A DNA stretch of 35,288 bases, taken from an uncultured bacterium. Lineage in GTDB: Bacteria; UBP6; UBA1177. Below are positions 25,837 to 35,288 of the stretch, in pieces. The notes under the pieces were generated by a model. The model was not told the DNA's origin. It did no database searches and saw only the letters and a list, made by a program, of their open reading frames with translations. The stretch's first letter is position 1, and each line of letters opens with the position of its first letter. The stretch covers positions 1 through 35,288 of the forward strand of contig CAJOMF010000024.1 of the NCBI GenBank assembly GCA_905235605.1, given 5' to 3'. The position numbers and the translations under genes are program-made.

Positions 25837-25864
25837 TTGACAAAATCCTTTTTGTGAGTAATGG
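25837..25864 (+). promoter_or_regulatory. Candidate promoter of the beta-helix lipoprotein pair
   Basis: Consensus TTGACA (25837-25842) is followed after 16 bases by TAATGG (25859-25864), a weak -10. This would place the start near 25871, after the ATG at 25861 and before that at 25906, which supports the shorter protein. Confidence 0.4.
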
Positions 25865-25905
25865 TTAACTGTTGTATTGTTGTTTGTATGTGCGGAGTTA
25901 AGTTT

Positions 25906-26943
25906 ATGTTTGTTTTTATCTTTATTTTTGTTTTATTAAGTTCGTGTTCACAGAATGTTTCTCACGATTATGATTTGCCCGAAGAGTGCGGCGGAAAGTG
26001 CTATGCGGCGCATGACATCAATTCTTTTCAGGATGCTCTTGTAAATTCGGCAGCCGCTTTTTCAAACTGCGTATGCTTGGGGAGCGGAGTTTTCGAAGGT
26101 TCTGTTACAGTGGCAAAACCTCTCCGTATCATTGGCAGGAAAGACGGCTCGACTTATTTGAAAAGACTTGCAATTTCGGATACTTCAGGAGTGGTACTGC
26201 GGGATTTTTCCTTTAAAAACGTCTCTACTGATTCGGCTGCGCTTTTTATTTCCGGCAGCTCTGTCGAAATGGAAAATATCTCTTTTTCGGGAATAAGCGC
26301 GGGTTCCGTTTTCGGCGGTCGCGGAATTGTGATTTCGGGTAAAGAGTCGGAAGTTTTCATAAAAAATTCAAAAATGGAGCGTACTGACGGAACTGGGATC
26401 CTGATAAACGGCGCGCACAAAGTGACTTTGGAAAATGTCGCTCTTTCAAAATGCGGTTTTGCTGCTCTCTGGGCTCAGAATCAAAGTGAAAACAGAGGGT
26501 TTTTGTCAGTTTCAGACAGCAATTTTTCAGATAACGGCGCAACTGCAATCGAAATTCTGGGTAACACAGCGCTTCAAATTTCGGGAAGTTCGATCGAAGG
26601 AGTGAGAAAAAGGGATGTCATGCTTGAAAGCGTGGGTGACGGGATCGTCGTTAAAAATTCTTTTCTTGCGGAAGCAGATTCGATTTTGATTGAAAACAGC
26701 TCGATAAGCGGTTTTCCGCGTGCCGGCATAATCTTAGACGGCGCTGAAGGCTTAACTTCGCTTGGTGCAAAATTCGAAAATCTTTCAGTTTTTTCGGAAA
26801 GCGGAAGTTTCGGGCTCGTCGTGCAGAATGCTGTCGAAGAAGCATCTTTGCGTGAAGGGATAACGCGGAACGATTTTTCGTCTGCAGACCTGAAACTGGA
26901 AGAAGAACTTTTTATAATCGATACTTTCTTTGAACTGCAATGA
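25906..26943 (+). CDS. Right-handed beta-helix lipoprotein
   Basis: This is a 345-residue predicted lipoprotein with lipobox LLSSC (Cys14 from ATG 25906). An ATG at 25861 is open too but lies upstream of the likely transcription start; GCGGAG precedes 25906. After a Cys-rich start (EECGGKCYAAHDINSFQDAL) the body has a Leu/Val-x-Asn/Gly-x-x-ladder of PbH1-type coils: VVLRDFSFKNVSTDSAALFISGSSVEMENISFSGI, VFIKNSKMERTDGTGILI and so on, with FSDNGATAIEILGN. This is the fold of pectate lyases and surface adhesins. No catalytic Asp cluster is obvious. Its stop overlaps the start of the next, similar gene (ATGA). Confidence 0.78.
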   Translation: MFVFIFIFVLLSSCSQNVSHDYDLPEECGGKCYAAHDINSFQDALVNSAAAFSNCVCLGSGVFEGSVTVAKPLRIIGRKDGSTYLKRLAISDTSGVVLRDFSFKNVSTDSAALFISGSSVEMENISFSGISAGSVFGGRGIVISGKESEVFIKNSKMERTDGTGILINGAHKVTLENVALSKCGFAALWAQNQSENRGFLSVSDSNFSDNGATAIEILGNTALQISGSSIEGVRKRDVMLESVGDGIVVKNSFLAEADSILIENSSISGFPRAGIILDGAEGLTSLGAKFENLSVFSESGSFGLVVQNAVEEASLREGITRNDFSSADLKLEEELFIIDTFFELQ

Positions 26944-28634
26944 TAGTGTTTGTTATTGTTTTTATTGCGCTTTCTCTCTTTTCATGCGGCGGAGTTTCCG
27001 AAAATGTTCCGGTAGAAAAGGAAGATTTTGATGAAATTAATGATGAAGCTATTGAAAAGTGCGTTGAAAACTCCGTTTCATATCAAAGGCCGGAATTGCC
27101 TCAAAAGCCGGAAATTGCTGAAATAAAGAAATACGGCGGAAATTCCGAATGCATTCCTCTACCTGACGCTGAAAGCGGAGAATTGATTTTAGGAGAAGGC
27201 TGTTTTTCGGGCTGTATCAAAGCAGAAAACAAACTCAGAATCTCTGGAAAGGGTGCGGAAAATACGATAATTGTCTGTAATGATGAAGAAAAACAGGCGG
27301 TTATTGAAGTCGAACAAAATGCGGAAGTGACACTTGAAAATGTTTCTATTTCAGGGAATGTCCGCTGCATTTTTGCTGAAAACGGAAGCAGGACAACTGT
27401 TAAAAAGAGCGTTCTTTCGCACTGCGCGAAAGGGGGGATAAACATTTGTCCCGATGAAGCCGGATGCCGCGCCGATCTTACGGTAACTGACAGTTTTATA
27501 GGCGATATCGACGAAGCTGCATCAGGGATAAGTTACGGGATTTCTTTCGGAAACGGTACTTTGAGCGTTTCAGGAAGCATGATTTCCGGTGTCAATTCTT
27601 TCGGAATAGCGGTCTGGGGCGAGAGCGGCAATTCGAATAAAATAAATATGGAAAATTCCGTGATATCAGGCGTTTACGGTGGCTTGAGAAGTTATGAAGG
27701 GCTCGGCTTTTATGCTGAAAACTCTGCCGACATAGTGATAAAAAAGAGTTCGATTTCAGATACGGCGACTTCATTTGTTTTTGTATCTTCGGAAAGTGAT
27801 GAAATAAATCTGAAACTTATTGATTTTACTGCCGAAAACATTCTTGAAACATTGGAAGAGCAGGGAGGAATTGTTCTTGACGGCAGGGTTAAAGGCTGTT
27901 TTGAGCGGATTTCAATGGAAATGAGCCGCGGAAACGGAATTTTTTCACGCGGAGCAGTGCTTTACGCCGAAGATCTGGCTGTAAAATCAGTTTTTTCTGA
28001 CGGTTTGGAAGAGAACGGTTTCGCTCTGCAGCTTGTTGACGGAAGCGAAAGTTTTATAAAGCGCCTTTCTGTAAATTCAGCAGAAAAGGCGGGGATCCTG
28101 CTCGACGGAGTGTGTAGCGCTGATATTGAGGATTTTGAAATTATTTCAACAAAATCTGATAGTTATACAGGGGAATTCGGAGTCGGTGCGGCGATTCAGA
28201 ATGGAGCTGCTGCAAGATTTGAAAACGGTCTTTTTTCAGAAAACAGAGAAACGGGAATCCTTGCAGTAAGTGCTGAAATTTCTTTGAAAAATGTAGAAAT
28301 CAAAAACACTCTGCCGCGCAGATGCACAGAAAATAAAAACTGTGTTTTTGCCCCGAAAACCGATTTCGGTCACGGAATATCGCTCTATTCTTCATCGCTT
28401 CTCAGATTCGACGCAATGACCATTTTCAATAACAACAACGGCTTGAACATTTCTGATTCAGAGCTGCTTAGTTTCGGCTCGAAAAAGCTCTTCTTCGGAA
28501 ACAACATGACTGCTGTCAATGCATGGAATATCAATGATTTCAATATGTTGGAAGAAAACCTCTCAAATTCTTCATTCTGCGGGAATGGTTCGGTCTTCAC
28601 TTCCGATTCGCAACCTGTTAGGGATGGTCTGTAA
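26940..28634 (+). CDS. Right-handed beta-helix lipoprotein, larger paralogue
   Basis: This 564-residue lipoprotein has lipobox LSLFSC (Cys16), with no positive residue before the hydrophobic stretch. An acidic linker (residues ~20-60) leads into a beta-helix of ~25 coils: AVIEVEQNAEVTLENVSISG, FAENGSRTTVKKSVLSHCAKGGINI and FFAENSADIVIKKSSISDT-like repeats, with regular N-x-x-I/V and G-I periodicity. It shares the DAFQDAL-to-RISGKGAENTII opening with the upstream gene (compare LRIIGRKDGSTYL), so the pair probably arose by duplication. Cys residues occur in each third (CIPLPDAESGELILGEGCFSGC). The target of the surface helix is unknown. Confidence 0.8.
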   Translation: MIVFVIVFIALSLFSCGGVSENVPVEKEDFDEINDEAIEKCVENSVSYQRPELPQKPEIAEIKKYGGNSECIPLPDAESGELILGEGCFSGCIKAENKLRISGKGAENTIIVCNDEEKQAVIEVEQNAEVTLENVSISGNVRCIFAENGSRTTVKKSVLSHCAKGGINICPDEAGCRADLTVTDSFIGDIDEAASGISYGISFGNGTLSVSGSMISGVNSFGIAVWGESGNSNKINMENSVISGVYGGLRSYEGLGFYAENSADIVIKKSSISDTATSFVFVSSESDEINLKLIDFTAENILETLEEQGGIVLDGRVKGCFERISMEMSRGNGIFSRGAVLYAEDLAVKSVFSDGLEENGFALQLVDGSESFIKRLSVNSAEKAGILLDGVCSADIEDFEIISTKSDSYTGEFGVGAAIQNGAAARFENGLFSENRETGILAVSAEISLKNVEIKNTLPRRCTENKNCVFAPKTDFGHGISLYSSSLLRFDAMTIFNNNNGLNISDSELLSFGSKKLFFGNNMTAVNAWNINDFNMLEENLSNSSFCGNGSVFTSDSQPVRDGL

Positions 28635-28727: not shown

Positions 28728-30047
28728 ATGCAAAAGTTCTTAGAATTTTTGATGATTTTATCGGTCTTTTTTCTTTTTTCCTGCTCGTCCTCCCAATCTT
28801 CGAATGATTCCGACTCAATTTCTGATTCAGACACGGACACGCAGGATTCAGAAACTCTTGTTGATGAAGACGCAGACAAAGATGCTGATCCTATCGAAGA
28901 TTATGACAAAACGCCGGATGCGGATCAGGATTTTGACTCTGATAACGATTCCGACTCCCCTGAAACTGTTGAATGTCTCGATCTTCGTTACAACGAAAAC
29001 ACTATCAAAACACCTTTTCCGTTCAAGAACAAAAACGGCAAACCCACTTTCTGCCGCCCCGGCTGCGACACGCCGACGGAAAACGATCCCCAGTGTGTCC
29101 GCAACATCTGGGATTGGGAAAATTGGGAAGAATATCAAAACTATTTGAAAGAACAGGAAAAAGATCCTAACCAAACAAAAGAACGAGCCTGTTATCCGTG
29201 GCCGTGCAAACTGCCGGATATGCATGCAAAAACCAAAGAAACTTTGGACACCTTTGTCAGCAGTTGCGACCGGTTGCTTACAGTGAATGGTTTTTCTGTC
29301 ACAATGGGAACTGTCTGGTCAAATGGTATGTATGACGGAGTTGTCGGAATACAATTGCAGCACAGCAGTATGATAGTTGAATATGATCCTGAAAAAGATG
29401 AGTATATGACTTTGGGTCAGAACAGAGCTTTATCATTCAACGAAGGTCGTTATGTTGCTGAAATTTATGACCGCGTTCCTGGAGATTACCCGAACAACTA
29501 CAAAGTTTTTACAGTTTCTGTTTTGAGAACAGAAAACGGTTATTTCTATGAACTGATTCGTAATAACTATAAACACAAAGATAAGTTTTCCGATCCTCCA
29601 TTTGCCGGAAAGAACTGGGTTCTTCTTCGTCTCACAGGCAACAAAACAGTTTATGCCTCTTCCAAAGACTGGGAATGGCATGAACTTGCCGGAATCAACA
29701 ACTATGCCGGAGAAGGCAATATAGTCGGAGACCACCTGACTTTCATCACAAACAATCGTGAGCTTTATTACTGTGATTTACGGAAATATCCGAAACACAT
29801 TGACGAGTGTTTCAAGCTGAACAGAAAAGATGAATCCGGCAATGAAGAAATCGGTCACAGTCCGAGAATTGACATAGAAAATGAATACCGTGTTGTTTAT
29901 AATATCTATCATAAACATATTTTTGTTGAAGTTGATCTGCATGATTTACAGAATCCGAAGTATACGGAATATAAAATAGAAGACAGCACAGACACGGCAT
30001 TCAGTCTGGAAAAAAATTTCATATCAGAAGTTTTTCATGTTACCTGA
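28728..30047 (+). CDS. Asp-rich lipoprotein, C-terminus lost by frameshift
   Basis: The 439-codon frame has lipobox FFLFSC (Cys19). An acidic Ser/Asp/Glu linker (residues ~20-80) precedes a Cys-rich segment (CRPGCDTPTENDPQCVRNIWDWENWEEY, then YPWPCKLPD near residue 165). The rest is an all-beta body with blade-like repeats (VVGIQLQHSSMIVEYDPEKDEYMTLG, LTFITNNRELYYCDLRKYP, FVEVDLHDLQNPKYTEYK), probably a six- or seven-bladed propeller at the cell surface. It ends abruptly at FISEVFHVT, TGA. The next 230 bases in the +1 frame continue the protein (see next entry). Removing one T from the run 30031-30035 restores a single frame to 30267. Confidence 0.82.
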   Translation: MQKFLEFLMILSVFFLFSCSSSQSSNDSDSISDSDTDTQDSETLVDEDADKDADPIEDYDKTPDADQDFDSDNDSDSPETVECLDLRYNENTIKTPFPFKNKNGKPTFCRPGCDTPTENDPQCVRNIWDWENWEEYQNYLKEQEKDPNQTKERACYPWPCKLPDMHAKTKETLDTFVSSCDRLLTVNGFSVTMGTVWSNGMYDGVVGIQLQHSSMIVEYDPEKDEYMTLGQNRALSFNEGRYVAEIYDRVPGDYPNNYKVFTVSVLRTENGYFYELIRNNYKHKDKFSDPPFAGKNWVLLRLTGNKTVYASSKDWEWHELAGINNYAGEGNIVGDHLTFITNNRELYYCDLRKYPKHIDECFKLNRKDESGNEEIGHSPRIDIENEYRVVYNIYHKHIFVEVDLHDLQNPKYTEYKIEDSTDTAFSLEKNFISEVFHVT

Positions 30048-30267
30048 TGGAACAGTTGATGTTATCGGTTGTTTTTACCGCTTTGACAAGAAAAAAATAT
30101 ATTGTCCTAAAGAACATACATCTTCCACAGATCCTTCAGATTTGATGGGCTATAATGTTTTCTGGGGGAAGTGGCATTTGTGGAAAAGAATCGGCAGACC
30201 CTCAGCCATAATAAGGAATTTAGAGTGTTATTGTAAGGAAACGGATGTGTGTCCAATAGAAAAATAA
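30037..30267 (+). pseudogene. Detached C-terminus of the Asp-rich lipoprotein
   Basis: This open frame (76 codons) lies +1 to the upstream gene and overlaps it by 11 bases. It reads LPDGTVDVIGCFYRFDKKKI, with Cys pairs in the tail (LECYCKETDVCPIEK), and GKWHLWKRIGRPSAI. With one T deleted the joined protein passes smoothly from ISEVF into MLPDGTVDVIGC. There is no ribosome binding site or signal peptide, so it is unlikely to be a gene of its own. It may be a real mutation or an assembly error in a homopolymer. Confidence 0.75.
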
Positions 30268-30285: not shown

Positions 30286-33200
30286 ATGAAAAAATTCATG
30301 CTTTTTATCGTTTTATTTAGTTTTTCATGCCTTGTTTATGCCGAGGTCTGTATTGATGGAAGTGATTCCTGCGGCGAGCCGGACGATGAAGTATGTATTC
30401 CTGCTGAAATTATGGATGAAATAAAAGCCAGCAATCAGGCGTTGAGAAGATTTCCTCGTCATCGGGTTTCTGCAAATATTAACAATGGTAATGCCGGAGT
30501 TGTTCCTTTTGAAGTTACTATAAGCGATGCTGAAGGAAATCCGCAAAAATATACAGTTTATTCTTTAACGAATTATGTTGACGAGCAAGGACATGTTCAT
30601 GACTTGGTTTCAAGTATAAAAAGTCAGGGTTCTTCCGGTGACTGTACAAGGTTTGCATCAACAGGAGCAATAGAAATCAAACTGGCAAAACAATATGCCG
30701 ATATTTTTCAGACAGCAAAGAATGTCGTGAGTACAAATAGGGGAAACCCGGGAATTGTCGAAGCCAATCTTTCAGAGGCTTATGCAAAAGAAATTGCCGG
30801 TTGTGAAAATCATGGAACTAATGTGATGATAAGGCTTGCAGCAAGAGGAATTATTCAGGAAGAACATTATCCCTATTATGTCAGGTCTTTTGGTGAATTT
30901 GAATATCTCAGCAAACGGGATACTGAACGATATGGGGATTTTTACAATAAAGGTTGTAATAAAGAGAATAGTTGGAACAGTGGACTTAGAGAAAAAGCAA
31001 AAGATGAGCAATGGCTTAGGTTTTATCCTGGATTTCCTGAGACTACTACAGAGATAAATGATGTGAAGGATTCTATACAAATTGGAGAACCTATTGTTAT
31101 GACTTACAGATATGATTGTATGTTTGATAGTGATGATAAAATTGCCCCCGGTTCTTGGGGAAAATTCACTAATTTCATAGTTAAAGACAATAGAGCCATA
31201 GAGGGTGGCGGTGGGCATGCGGTAATTATTGTAGGGTATATGGAACCAGTGGATACTGGAACTGGACCGGATTATTTTATAATAAAAAACAGTCATTATT
31301 TTGAAAGCAAACTTGAGTTGTTTACAGTTGACCAGAATTTTGCTAAAAATTGCAATCCTGAATACAACATTTTTGGGGGGGATGTTAAAATTTTTACCGA
31401 GGGTTCTGAAAGCTCATTGGTTTTAGAAGTTTTAACTGAAGTAGAAAATCTGTTGGAACATGCACAAACTCCGGAAGATAGAGAAAGGTGGCAAAATTTA
31501 TTAAATGATCTGCAAGATCTGAGAAATTTTGAAAAAGATGGCGATCCTGGGCAAAAAACATATTTGTCTGCCGACAATTTGGTAAAAATAGATTTTGATC
31601 AAGATGCTATTCCGGATATTTTTGACAATAGTGTTTACTCCAAAATCTATGCACCGGCAGATCTCGCCGATGTTTCCCATAACCCGGCTCAAGGAAGTGC
31701 AGACGGAGACCGTTTCCCTTTGGAAAGGGATGGGTGCCCATATAGATCAGATCATGCTCTTTGGAATATGGATATGGACAGCTTTGGCGATTTTTGTGAC
31801 AAAGATATTGACGGTGACGGGATCAGTAATGTCGAAGAGGGGTTAAGTGATGAATACCTTTACCGTGTGTATGAACGTCTGGTAAGTACTGATTCAAGTT
31901 TGTCCATAGAGGAGTATGCCGTAGTGAATCCGTTTATAGATGGGAAAACCGGTAAAATTTCAGGCAAGTATTTTGTTTCTGAAAAATTTGTAGAAGGTAA
32001 AAAGAAAGAACTCATATTGACAGACAAATACATCTCAGGAATCGATTTTTATCTATTGCCTTTCCATGATAATATAGAAAGTACGCCCAAGTTTCAATTC
32101 ATCAAAAACGCGAGTTTTTTTCACAATTGGTATTTAAGTTTAAAAGCCAAAGAGACAGATCCATGGATTCGTAAATTTTCATATAAAGACGATAACAAAA
32201 TGGAACAGGTTTCTTATGGTCTGAAATGGAATATTCCCGGTCTCTTTGAAATGAAAGATATTCCATATAGGGACTATAAAGATGATAATTATGGCGAGAA
32301 TTATCCTGAAAATTTCAATAATTGCCTTTTACATTGTGAACAACTTGTTAAGAGATACGCAGGGCAGGATTTTTTGAAACTGAAAGATTGTCAACAGGCT
32401 TGTCGAAATGCTTATCAATGCACAGAAGGGGAAGGAATTGACAGAGATTGTGACGGAATCAGAAACGATTACGACAAGTGCCCCGATACTTATAATCCGG
32501 AACAGCTTGACTCGGACGGAGACGGAGTTCCTGATGCCTGCGACAACTGTCCCGGTATCCCGAATCCGCTGGTAAGCCGTGAATTGAAAAGTGAATTTAT
32601 TCTTGCCGAAGATTTCGGCGCATACGCACTGGATTTATGTAAAGTCAGCGAAAATGATTCTGAATTTTCGAGAAGACCTGTATGTATGATGCAACCCGAT
32701 AGTGATTTGGACGGAATCGGTGATGCATGCGATTTCATGGATCCTAACCAACCTCTTAAAATACAGAAAAAACTCGGCTTTGCAAACAGCAGGATAACAA
32801 ATATTCAACCACATTCTTTTACAATGAACTATCTTTTTCAGGAATTTGATGATTACGCCAATGTCAGATTGAATATGCCGGAAAACAGCGGAAGGGGTTT
32901 AGATATTTGCAAACCACGCTATAGAAAAAACGATATCGAGTGCAATGCTGCAATCCATTATTGTGCGATAAATCACATTGATAAAACAAGAGATTTGTGG
33001 GGAACCAGAGGACATTGTTCAACAGCGGAAAAGGAAGGCGGTTCTTCGGTGTCAGGTAAAAATTTCGGTTACAGCCACGGTAGCGATGATTTTTCAGACG
33101 ATTCAATACTCAGTTGGCAGCACCGTATTTCTTTTGCTGATTCTTCAAAATTCACAAAAAGTTACAATTGGAAAGATAGTTTTACCGAAACTGCTTTGAA

Positions 33201-35288
33201 TAATAATCCTGCAAAAAAACCGATTAAAGTTCCGACAACCGGAGAAACTGTAATCTGGAACTGGCGGAGAGACTGGTACGAAAAAAGTGATTGTTTGGGG
33301 ATCAACAAAGATAGTAATCTGTGTTTGAACATTCTCCATGGTGGTGACTACAACGTTGCAAACACAATGTATTACGCACTTTCAACGAGTATTCTGCCAG
33401 TCAAAGACGGCAGTAAGTTAGAAGAAATTCCGTCTTATATAAAGTATGGTGACAATGGAGAACCGGAAATAAACAATGATTATTTTCCATCGACAAATAC
33501 CAACAAATTCGCCCGTGCATCCAGATACAACATTGAAGCTATGAAACTCAACTATCATACGAAAATGATTACTCCGCCGGTTTCTGCGCCGATCGAATTT
33601 CCAGATATCGAGCTTTGTGCATCGTGCTATTTCGATATGCCGATACGCTATTTCGGGATAAATGAGATCCTACCTTATGATTATGTTTCACGTTATGAGG
33701 TCAGAAAAGACAGTGAAAACAAAGTGTTGCTTGATTCGCAAAGGATCATGTTTCAAAAGGATCAGATTGCTTTCAGCGAGATTTCTCCCAAAGAAATGAT
33801 CGGAATTGAAACCAACGGCAAAGAATATTTCCTGACGATAAATACTTCTGAAAGCGGTGCCGACTGGAGCAGAATCGGCAGGATAGAAAACTGGGATCCT
33901 GAAATCGGGGAAATTGAAAGTTTCTCGGCAAATTATTTCATTGCGAAGAATGCTAATGGCGTAAAAACACTCTACTCGCTTGAATTGATTAGTGAAATTC
34001 CGCAGAACTTTAATGCCTTCATTGATGATGGTGAACTGCCTGAAATGGTTTATACTGTAAACAATCTGGGGGAAACCGGTTTCGACCGGGAACAAACAAA
34101 ACTTGTTTTTGCAAACGGTATGCTTTACCTTTTTGCCAACAGCGGAAACGGTTTCGGAACTTATCTGCACAACGGCAAAATATTTGAAGAAATTCAAGGT
34201 GTTATGCCGCAGCAAAGAAAAATAGTGAATGTCTCTGTTTCCGGCAGATATCTGTTTTTGGCAGGCGGAACTGACTTCAACAATGAAACAATGAACGATT
34301 TGTGGCGTTTCGATACGGAAGCAAACAGCTGGGAACAGATTCTGGTCACACTTCAGGGCGATTTCAGCAAAGTTATTATGCAGGAAGCAGGCGGCAAAAT
34401 CGTCGGTTTCAATCCAATAATTGATGACAATACCACTTTCCCTGTTTTCGAGTTCGAAAACTTGGAAGATGTTGAAAACATTGAAGTTTCATACTCGCAA
34501 ATAAAGATTGAAAACCTTGATTTTGAGCAGACTTTCTGCATTTCCGAAACCGACAACTCAATTTTCCCCGGCATTACGAATTTTTACGGAGAGTGCGTGA
34601 AAGTTGAGAACTATGACTTCGATGAAGTTACTTTTCCGGACTACAAACTGAGTGTCGCAGGCTATAGAAACAGCCTTTATCTGGGCGGTCTCTCAGGGAT
34701 CCGCAGAGTTGAGATCGGAGAGAACGGTGAAATCACCAAAAAAGAGATGATTTACAGCGGGGAATCGAACAATCTGGCAGTTTACGGAAACACGCTTTAT
34801 GCAGCCAACTACAGCGAAATCGACATTTTTGAAATTGCCGAAGACGGCTCGATTGAAAGAAAATCGTCAGTAAAAACAAGTAACTGCAAAAACATCAGGA
34901 TCGATGGCGGAAAACTTTTTGCTGCAGAAAATAAAAGAGTCAGAATATTTGATTTGAATGATCCGCGTTCACCTAACCTGCTGAAAACGATCTCCCTCAC
35001 CAAGACCGTGGAAGACCTCGAAACCGCTGCAGGCAAACTCTTTGTGTATGAAAATCTCAACGGGTTGCTGACAAGAAAAGGAAAAGTTTCCGTTTTTGAC
35101 ATTTCAGACATTGCAACTCCGCAGAAAATCAAAGAATTTTCTCAATATTGCAGCGATCCTGAGATGCAGAAATCTGGAAACAGCGTATACTTGGGCTGCA
35201 AAAACGGTTCTTTCAAGGTCGAAGAAACTGGTTTGCAGAAAGTGAACGGCTCAAAGAATTACCTTCGTGAAGGTTATGTCTTTGACGG
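30286..35288 (+). CDS. Giant secreted papain-like cysteine protease with TSP3 repeats and propeller, 3' end outside the window
   Basis: ATG 30286 (AAGGAGAGC upstream) opens a frame with no stop to the window end: 1667 codons, still open. The signal peptide is KKFMLFIVLFSFSCLVYA, cleaved before EVC. Residues ~85-350 are a C1A (papain) domain: Gln114 (oxyanion) six residues before Cys120 in IKSQGSSGDCTRFASTGAI, His311 in GGGGHAVIIVGY, Asn335 in FIIKNSHYF. Calcium-binding TSP3-type repeats occur near residues 495-520 (DMDSFGDFCDKDIDGDGISN), 718-755 and 800-815. A Cys-rich middle follows, then a kelch-like blade near 1320 (LAGGTDFNNETMNDLWRFD) and LVIVD-type blades from ~1480 (RVRIFDLNDPRSPNL, KVSVFDISDIATPQKI). 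It lies 18 bases after the Asp-rich lipoprotein tail, probably the same transcript. No classical inhibitor propeptide is clear. An extracellular or surface protease is inferred. Confidence 0.88.
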   Translation, partial: MKKFMLFIVLFSFSCLVYAEVCIDGSDSCGEPDDEVCIPAEIMDEIKASNQALRRFPRHRVSANINNGNAGVVPFEVTISDAEGNPQKYTVYSLTNYVDEQGHVHDLVSSIKSQGSSGDCTRFASTGAIEIKLAKQYADIFQTAKNVVSTNRGNPGIVEANLSEAYAKEIAGCENHGTNVMIRLAARGIIQEEHYPYYVRSFGEFEYLSKRDTERYGDFYNKGCNKENSWNSGLREKAKDEQWLRFYPGFPETTTEINDVKDSIQIGEPIVMTYRYDCMFDSDDKIAPGSWGKFTNFIVKDNRAIEGGGGHAVIIVGYMEPVDTGTGPDYFIIKNSHYFESKLELFTVDQNFAKNCNPEYNIFGGDVKIFTEGSESSLVLEVLTEVENLLEHAQTPEDRERWQNLLNDLQDLRNFEKDGDPGQKTYLSADNLVKIDFDQDAIPDIFDNSVYSKIYAPADLADVSHNPAQGSADGDRFPLERDGCPYRSDHALWNMDMDSFGDFCDKDIDGDGISNVEEGLSDEYLYRVYERLVSTDSSLSIEEYAVVNPFIDGKTGKISGKYFVSEKFVEGKKKELILTDKYISGIDFYLLPFHDNIESTPKFQFIKNASFFHNWYLSLKAKETDPWIRKFSYKDDNKMEQVSYGLKWNIPGLFEMKDIPYRDYKDDNYGENYPENFNNCLLHCEQLVKRYAGQDFLKLKDCQQACRNAYQCTEGEGIDRDCDGIRNDYDKCPDTYNPEQLDSDGDGVPDACDNCPGIPNPLVSRELKSEFILAEDFGAYALDLCKVSENDSEFSRRPVCMMQPDSDLDGIGDACDFMDPNQPLKIQKKLGFANSRITNIQPHSFTMNYLFQEFDDYANVRLNMPENSGRGLDICKPRYRKNDIECNAAIHYCAINHIDKTRDLWGTRGHCSTAEKEGGSSVSGKNFGYSHGSDDFSDDSILSWQHRISFADSSKFTKSYNWKDSFTETALNNNPAKKPIKVPTTGETVIWNWRRDWYEKSDCLGINKDSNLCLNILHGGDYNVANTMYYALSTSILPVKDGSKLEEIPSYIKYGDNGEPEINNDYFPSTNTNKFARASRYNIEAMKLNYHTKMITPPVSAPIEFPDIELCASCYFDMPIRYFGINEILPYDYVSRYEVRKDSENKVLLDSQRIMFQKDQIAFSEISPKEMIGIETNGKEYFLTINTSESGADWSRIGRIENWDPEIGEIESFSANYFIAKNANGVKTLYSLELISEIPQNFNAFIDDGELPEMVYTVNNLGETGFDREQTKLVFANGMLYLFANSGNGFGTYLHNGKIFEEIQGVMPQQRKIVNVSVSGRYLFLAGGTDFNNETMNDLWRFDTEANSWEQILVTLQGDFSKVIMQEAGGKIVGFNPIIDDNTTFPVFEFENLEDVENIEVSYSQIKIENLDFEQTFCISETDNSIFPGITNFYGECVKVENYDFDEVTFPDYKLSVAGYRNSLYLGGLSGIRRVEIGENGEITKKEMIYSGESNNLAVYGNTLYAANYSEIDIFEIAEDGSIERKSSVKTSNCKNIRIDGGKLFAAENKRVRIFDLNDPRSPNLLKTISLTKTVEDLETAAGKLFVYENLNGLLTRKGKVSVFDISDIATPQKIKEFSQYCSDPEMQKSGNSVYLGCKNGSFKVEETGLQKVNGSKNYLREGYVFD

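Follow-up and report, generated by a model that had tools for sequence, protein, structure and literature searches.

A predicted papain-type protease on a body that carries unrelated predicted proteases across the candidate phylum UBP6

We describe a gene at the end of a UBP6 contig whose product is predicted to join a papain-fold (C1A) protease to a long body of TSP3 repeats, a Cys-containing domain and two tandem beta-propellers. Read from the sequence, the oddity lies not in a papain domain on such a body but in the many unrelated predicted proteases that relatives carry on this same, UBP6-specific body. This suggests a single surface chassis whose protein-cutting tools can be exchanged. 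No paper describing such an architecture was found in the open-licence literature searched. The candidate phylum UBP6 has been reported from rumen and anaerobic digesters and seems to have no cultured members. Unrelated proteases occur on one body across the phylum, and a lipoprotein tracks that body; together these findings point to display by a modular system, and such a protease family would explain where the amino acids that these bacteria ferment could come from.

Gene and body architecture

The window, the whole stretch of 35,288 nucleotides that was analysed, is an entire contig (C24) of a genome of 136 contigs and 2.67 Mb. Its last gene starts with ATG and is free of stop codons up to the contig end, as expected from the initial annotation, which had described an open frame of at least 1667 codons ending outside the window and which proved right about the protein in nearly every detail. 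The gene and the parts of its body are as follows.

30286–35286, + strand: modular protease gene of 1667 codons, truncated 3′ by the end of the contig
30286–30345, + strand: Sec-type signal peptide MKKFMLFIVLFSFSCLVYA, read from the sequence and predicted, by inspection only, to be cut before E
31573–31845, + strand: first TSP3-like calcium-binding stretch, degenerate, residues ~430–520 (profile scans)
32434–32571, + strand: TSP3 repeats, residues 717–762 (Pfam)
32689–34497, + strand: shared body middle (last TSP3-like motif, Cys-containing domain, first propeller)
34532–35288, + strand: 3′ cassette encoding the final beta-propeller and the tail, repeated within the genome

TSP_3 (PF02412) scored 43 bits against a cut-off of 25, over four stretches, and the TSP3 signal falls in three places: at about residues 430–520, at 717–762 and at 802–817, where the last TSP3-like motif (MQPDSDLDG) lies. 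The three TSP3 clusters initially described were therefore fair overall, although the first is weak and degenerate. Judging from the TSP3 family, these stretches would be stiffened by calcium. The description of a kelch/LVIVD propeller held in its kelch part, with Kelch_4 at 28.6 bits (cut-off 21.6), a single kelch repeat above the cut-off and a kelch motif at residues 1316–1352, in the first propeller. LVIVD (PF08309), by contrast, was not detected by Pfam in the present protein and was matched over the same region in 9 of 20 relatives. The model of the propeller region contains strand repeats resembling tandem-propeller proteins, at low global confidence.

A divergent papain-type head

The features of the head are listed below, each of the four residues being invariant in 7/7 heads.

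30568–31395, + strand: predicted papain-fold (C1A) catalytic head, residues ~95–370 (Pfam, homologue alignment, AF2 model, Foldseek, PDB profile search)
30625–30627, + strand: Gln114 (oxyanion hole)
30643–30645, + strand: Cys120 (nucleophile), in SGDCTRF
31216–31218, + strand: His311
31288–31290, + strand: Asn335, in KNSH

Peptidase_C1 (PF00112) matched residues 107–336 of the full protein at 24.6 bits (cut-off 20.7) and scored 29.0 bits against the head alone, so the C1A assignment stands. The four key residues, also named initially, are conserved far above chance in the seven heads, which come from UBP6 genomes and include the present one, the others being 24–65% identical to it. The best PDB matches to a profile of five heads included cathepsins L and H and a papain-like protease (E ~1e-7 to 1e-8), and Cys120 aligned with their catalytic Cys position. 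Structural comparison agreed as far as the fold is concerned: every one of the top 15 Foldseek matches in the PDB (E from 2e-4) was a papain or cathepsin chain, with a mediocre AF2 model as query (pLDDT 60, pTM 0.63) and with the catalytic residues placed by sequence. These results support a papain-fold protease with conserved catalytic residues, which would probably be proteolytically active.

The initial annotation had also pointed out that SGDCTRF lacks the first Cys and the Trp of the papain box, leaving no active-site disulfide, and this was confirmed in all seven heads. The position of papain Cys22 is occupied by S, L, F, L, F, G and S, that of Trp26 by T, A or S, and papain's NSW has become NSH or NSY in 7/7. 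As the Cys22 position is never Cys, no such disulfide can form, an absence that characterises this lineage of heads as a whole. Cys22 and the NSW Trp were each present in 17 of the 18 parsable bacterial C1A matches from a search of 290 genomes, a sample that favours the strongest matches. The departure in the present heads is thus real and lineage-wide, and with the active-site Trp absent and NSH in place of NSW, their specificity or activity could be altered. A different C1A domain, with the canonical CGACWTF box, occurs in a 1867-aa frame that adjoins another member of the body family (L148, G016:C113:14205-14834), so UBP6 has ordinary C1A heads too.

Bacterial C1A proteases of such size and layout had been considered rare. 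This view is weakened by a report that multidomain C1A proteases occur widely among bacteria (PMC10380794) and by the 290-genome search, in which frames of 700–1400 aa were common among PF00112 matches. Frames above 1500 aa numbered about three among the ~150 matches listed, two of them from the present bacterial family.

Unrelated heads on one UBP6-specific body

Alignment of the body against 84,980 named species returned 27 loci, all in UBP6 metagenome-assembled genomes (MAGs), whose habitats include yak, red deer, goat and buffalo gut as well as digester sludge. From about residue 802 on, the body is present in 23 of the 25 UBP6 genomes outside family f4, and matches in the remaining genomes of a 386-genome search were confined to propeller or TSP3-like segments (20–52 bits). 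Across both searches, the body as a whole was found only in UBP6. Rumen UBP6 has been reported as genus UBA1177 (PMC7820578), and UBP6 has been placed among the amino-acid-catabolising organisms of methanogenic bioprocesses, where it expresses amino-acid catabolism (PMC7382037). The present genome itself holds one full-length C1A paralogue, on contig C25 (43–55% identity, depending on the segment), and several further relatives that share the C-terminal half only.

Heads of full-length members fell into about 14 clusters in all. Eight C1A heads formed one BLAST cluster, and the same body also carries heads that match, above the Pfam cut-offs, S1 trypsin (L059), M12B (reprolysin-like, L078) and C25 (gingipain, L080, to which L058 and L082 are linked by BLAST), with a weak match to C39 in one further head (L081). 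An HExxH protein serves as head in L070, and HExxH is found in one of the two members of another head group (L073/L069). The other heads are ten that form a propeller-like group and several unknowns, which leaves room for members that are not enzymes. The C1A head is patchily distributed, occurring in 7 of 28 genomes, one of these by a weak partial match. At the level of sequence, then, heads have been exchanged on a body that is kept.

An upstream lipoprotein that follows the body

Directly upstream of the protease gene lies a lipoprotein gene (28728–30267) that is frame-broken in the present genome.

28728–30047, + strand: predicted partner lipoprotein gene, with a lipobox-type signal (...FLFSCSSS) followed by an acidic D/S-rich linker; the frame stops at 30047
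30037–30267, + strand: C-terminal end of the lipoprotein read in a different frame, by homology with an intact paralogue

The two adjoining genes ahead of it (25861–28634) encode right-handed beta-helix proteins. At the C25 locus, which has two lipoprotein copies, one is broken too (L003 12319–13647 and 11467–12309); phase variation, decay or assembly indels could account for such frames. The lipoprotein had no Pfam family, and a PDB profile search gave nothing convincing. Its family has 24 matches in the present genome, and carriers among the other UBP6 genomes outside f4 have 3–29 each. Genes of the family adjoin most body genes, often with an overlap of a few bases.

Considering 23 gene pairs, lipoprotein identity tracked that of the body middle (Mantel r 0.77, p 0.0005, the p value being indicative only because related sequences are not independent), with almost no relation to the tail once the middle was controlled (partial r 0.07). 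The head made no difference either. Where middles were similar (identity >0.45), mean lipoprotein identity was 0.71 with differing heads (n=17) and 0.72 with matching heads (n=10), and among the remaining pairs it was 0.35 in both cases. Wherever the lipoprotein is upstream, the head sits between it and the middle, so simple linkage does not explain this pattern. In these pairs, lipoprotein and body middle are thus inherited together, irrespective of head and tail.

A recombining 3′ cassette

Nucleotide identity between the protease gene and its paralogue on contig C83 steps from ~40% to ~90% at about window position 34530, a level kept up to the end of the contig. The cassette so delimited is 89–91% identical to C83 and C61 and 73% identical to C69 and C8. 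Genome G013 has seven copies with the same step (88–92%), extending over about 840 bp and ending at the stop codon. The last ~0.8 kb, encoding the final propeller and tail, is therefore near-identical between paralogues, and family members with similar middles can carry unrelated tails, and vice versa. Taken together, the identity step and the independent tails indicate that the final propeller is a recombining cassette with its own history. Repeats of this kind make assemblies of UBP6 genomes break inside body genes, and the present contig is a case in point: its last 60 nt recur without change at the start of C7 and within C132, and on C7 the frame runs 27 codons further, to EEIEEDGWF. Since the contig end is an assembly fork inside a repeat, the protease gene probably ends 27 codons beyond it.

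Several further observations concern the cassette and the C-termini. Orphan pieces of the cassette lie beside restriction-modification-like (methyltransferase-like) genes (L022 8536–9971 and L024 1646–1807) and look as if these genes had entered cassette genes. The family member on C69 (L019 222–4607) is split by an in-frame TGA within the cassette, and the C25 C1A paralogue (L003 4613–9892) ends frame-shifted in a cysteine tail, CGNGIVEGDEVCDG, which finishes ...NCSDDGW in other members. Family C-termini are either short and acidic (...EEDGW[FLI]) or DUF4215-like Cys tails, which finish in ...DGW or ...SGC, and these tails are a possible sorting signal.

Proposed function and alternatives

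The reading that we favour, with modest confidence, is that the gene encodes a Sec-exported, surface-displayed C1A protease that shares a common chassis and lipoprotein partner with its relatives and feeds amino-acid fermentation. The protease would be exported through Sec and would cross the outer membrane probably by type II secretion, given that 27 of 28 genomes have secretins and that no SprA (SprA_N) was found above the cut-off in these 28. The body would then be displayed outside the cell with the lipoprotein encoded next to it, both contributing to surface anchoring. Different family members would place different proteases on the same body, and the present head would cleave extracellular protein into peptides that the UBP6 bacterium ferments as amino acids. 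Counting against this are a body with no identified anchor motif, the broken frame of the partner lipoprotein in the present genome and the mediocre head model. We also considered a more specific and rather doubtful mechanism, in which the lipoprotein is a receptor that recognises the body middle and so displays any fused enzyme, with cassette exchange of the last propeller varying its aim. If the pairing of lipoprotein and body is real, it would be usable for enzyme display, and the export route of an uncultured phylum would become testable.

Other uses of the family were weighed. A surface weapon or host-directed factor, attacking prey cells, ruminant mucosa or plant protein, with the diversity of heads reflecting an arms race, would suit a large, secreted, many-headed family that recombines and of which many carriers live in the gut. 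C25, C1A and M12 heads are also protease types seen in virulence factors. We nevertheless regard such a role as unlikely, as the family is found in sludge-digester and other non-host MAGs as well. The host, prey or plant targets suggested initially are unsupported: nothing in the locus indicates a specific one, and for a known amino-acid degrader (PMC7382037) bulk protein digestion is the simpler use.

Slightly less likely still is a processing role, in which the enzyme would mature or shed other proteins on its own cell surface rather than digest food. The surface-type body, the several protease classes per lineage and the excess of lipoproteins over bodies (24 lipoprotein matches in the present genome) would fit, but no candidate substrate or cleavage motif was identified, and a battery of unrelated protease classes suits bulk digestion better. 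That the body does the work, as an adhesin or scaffold, and that the divergent head is a pseudo-enzyme seems improbable to us. The lost Trp and disulfide, the change from NSW to NSH and the propeller heads of some members argue for it, whereas all four catalytic residues are retained without change in the seven heads, even where identity falls to 24%, a conservation that would not be required of a pseudo-enzyme.

Comparison with known systems

In its fold (by sequence and structure searches), its Gln-Cys-His-Asn set and its signal peptide, the present protein resembles the papain family (MEROPS C1A / PF00112); it differs in lacking Cys22 and Trp26, in having NSH for NSW, in a body that brings it to at least 1667 aa and in the absence of a match to the I29 propeptide. 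The C1B enzymes (bleomycin hydrolase) likewise lack the first Cys, in the box SSGRCW. They are, however, intracellular, with neither a signal peptide nor such a body, and membership in C1B was rejected, no PF03051 match being listed at E <= 1.

Like the gingipains and other T9SS-exported proteases of Bacteroidota, the UBP6 family joins several secreted protease classes to a shared C-terminal body, and some of its heads are C25. The UBP6 body instead consists of TSP3 repeats and propellers, and T9SS export was rejected, as the present protein had no match to a T9SS C-terminal sorting domain in Pfam or NCBIfam and SprA was not found above the cut-off in the 28 genomes. Myxobacterial TSP3 surface proteins (MtsC, TraB) are similar in having TSP3 repeats in outer-membrane-associated proteins; membership in MtsC (NF047638) was rejected at 60.2 bits against a cut-off of 350, with the match confined to the TSP3 stretch.

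Polymorphic toxins likewise combine a constant part with many variable domains, recombination between paralogues and an adjacent many-copy gene family, so that the lipoprotein might be taken for an immunity protein against the head in an interbacterial system. This we rejected as very improbable, because immunity should track the toxin, whereas lipoprotein identity, with the middle controlled, is equal for shared and differing heads. Polymorphic toxins also usually vary at the C-terminus, whereas in UBP6 the variable part is N-terminal and a predicted protease, and the neighbour tracks the body.
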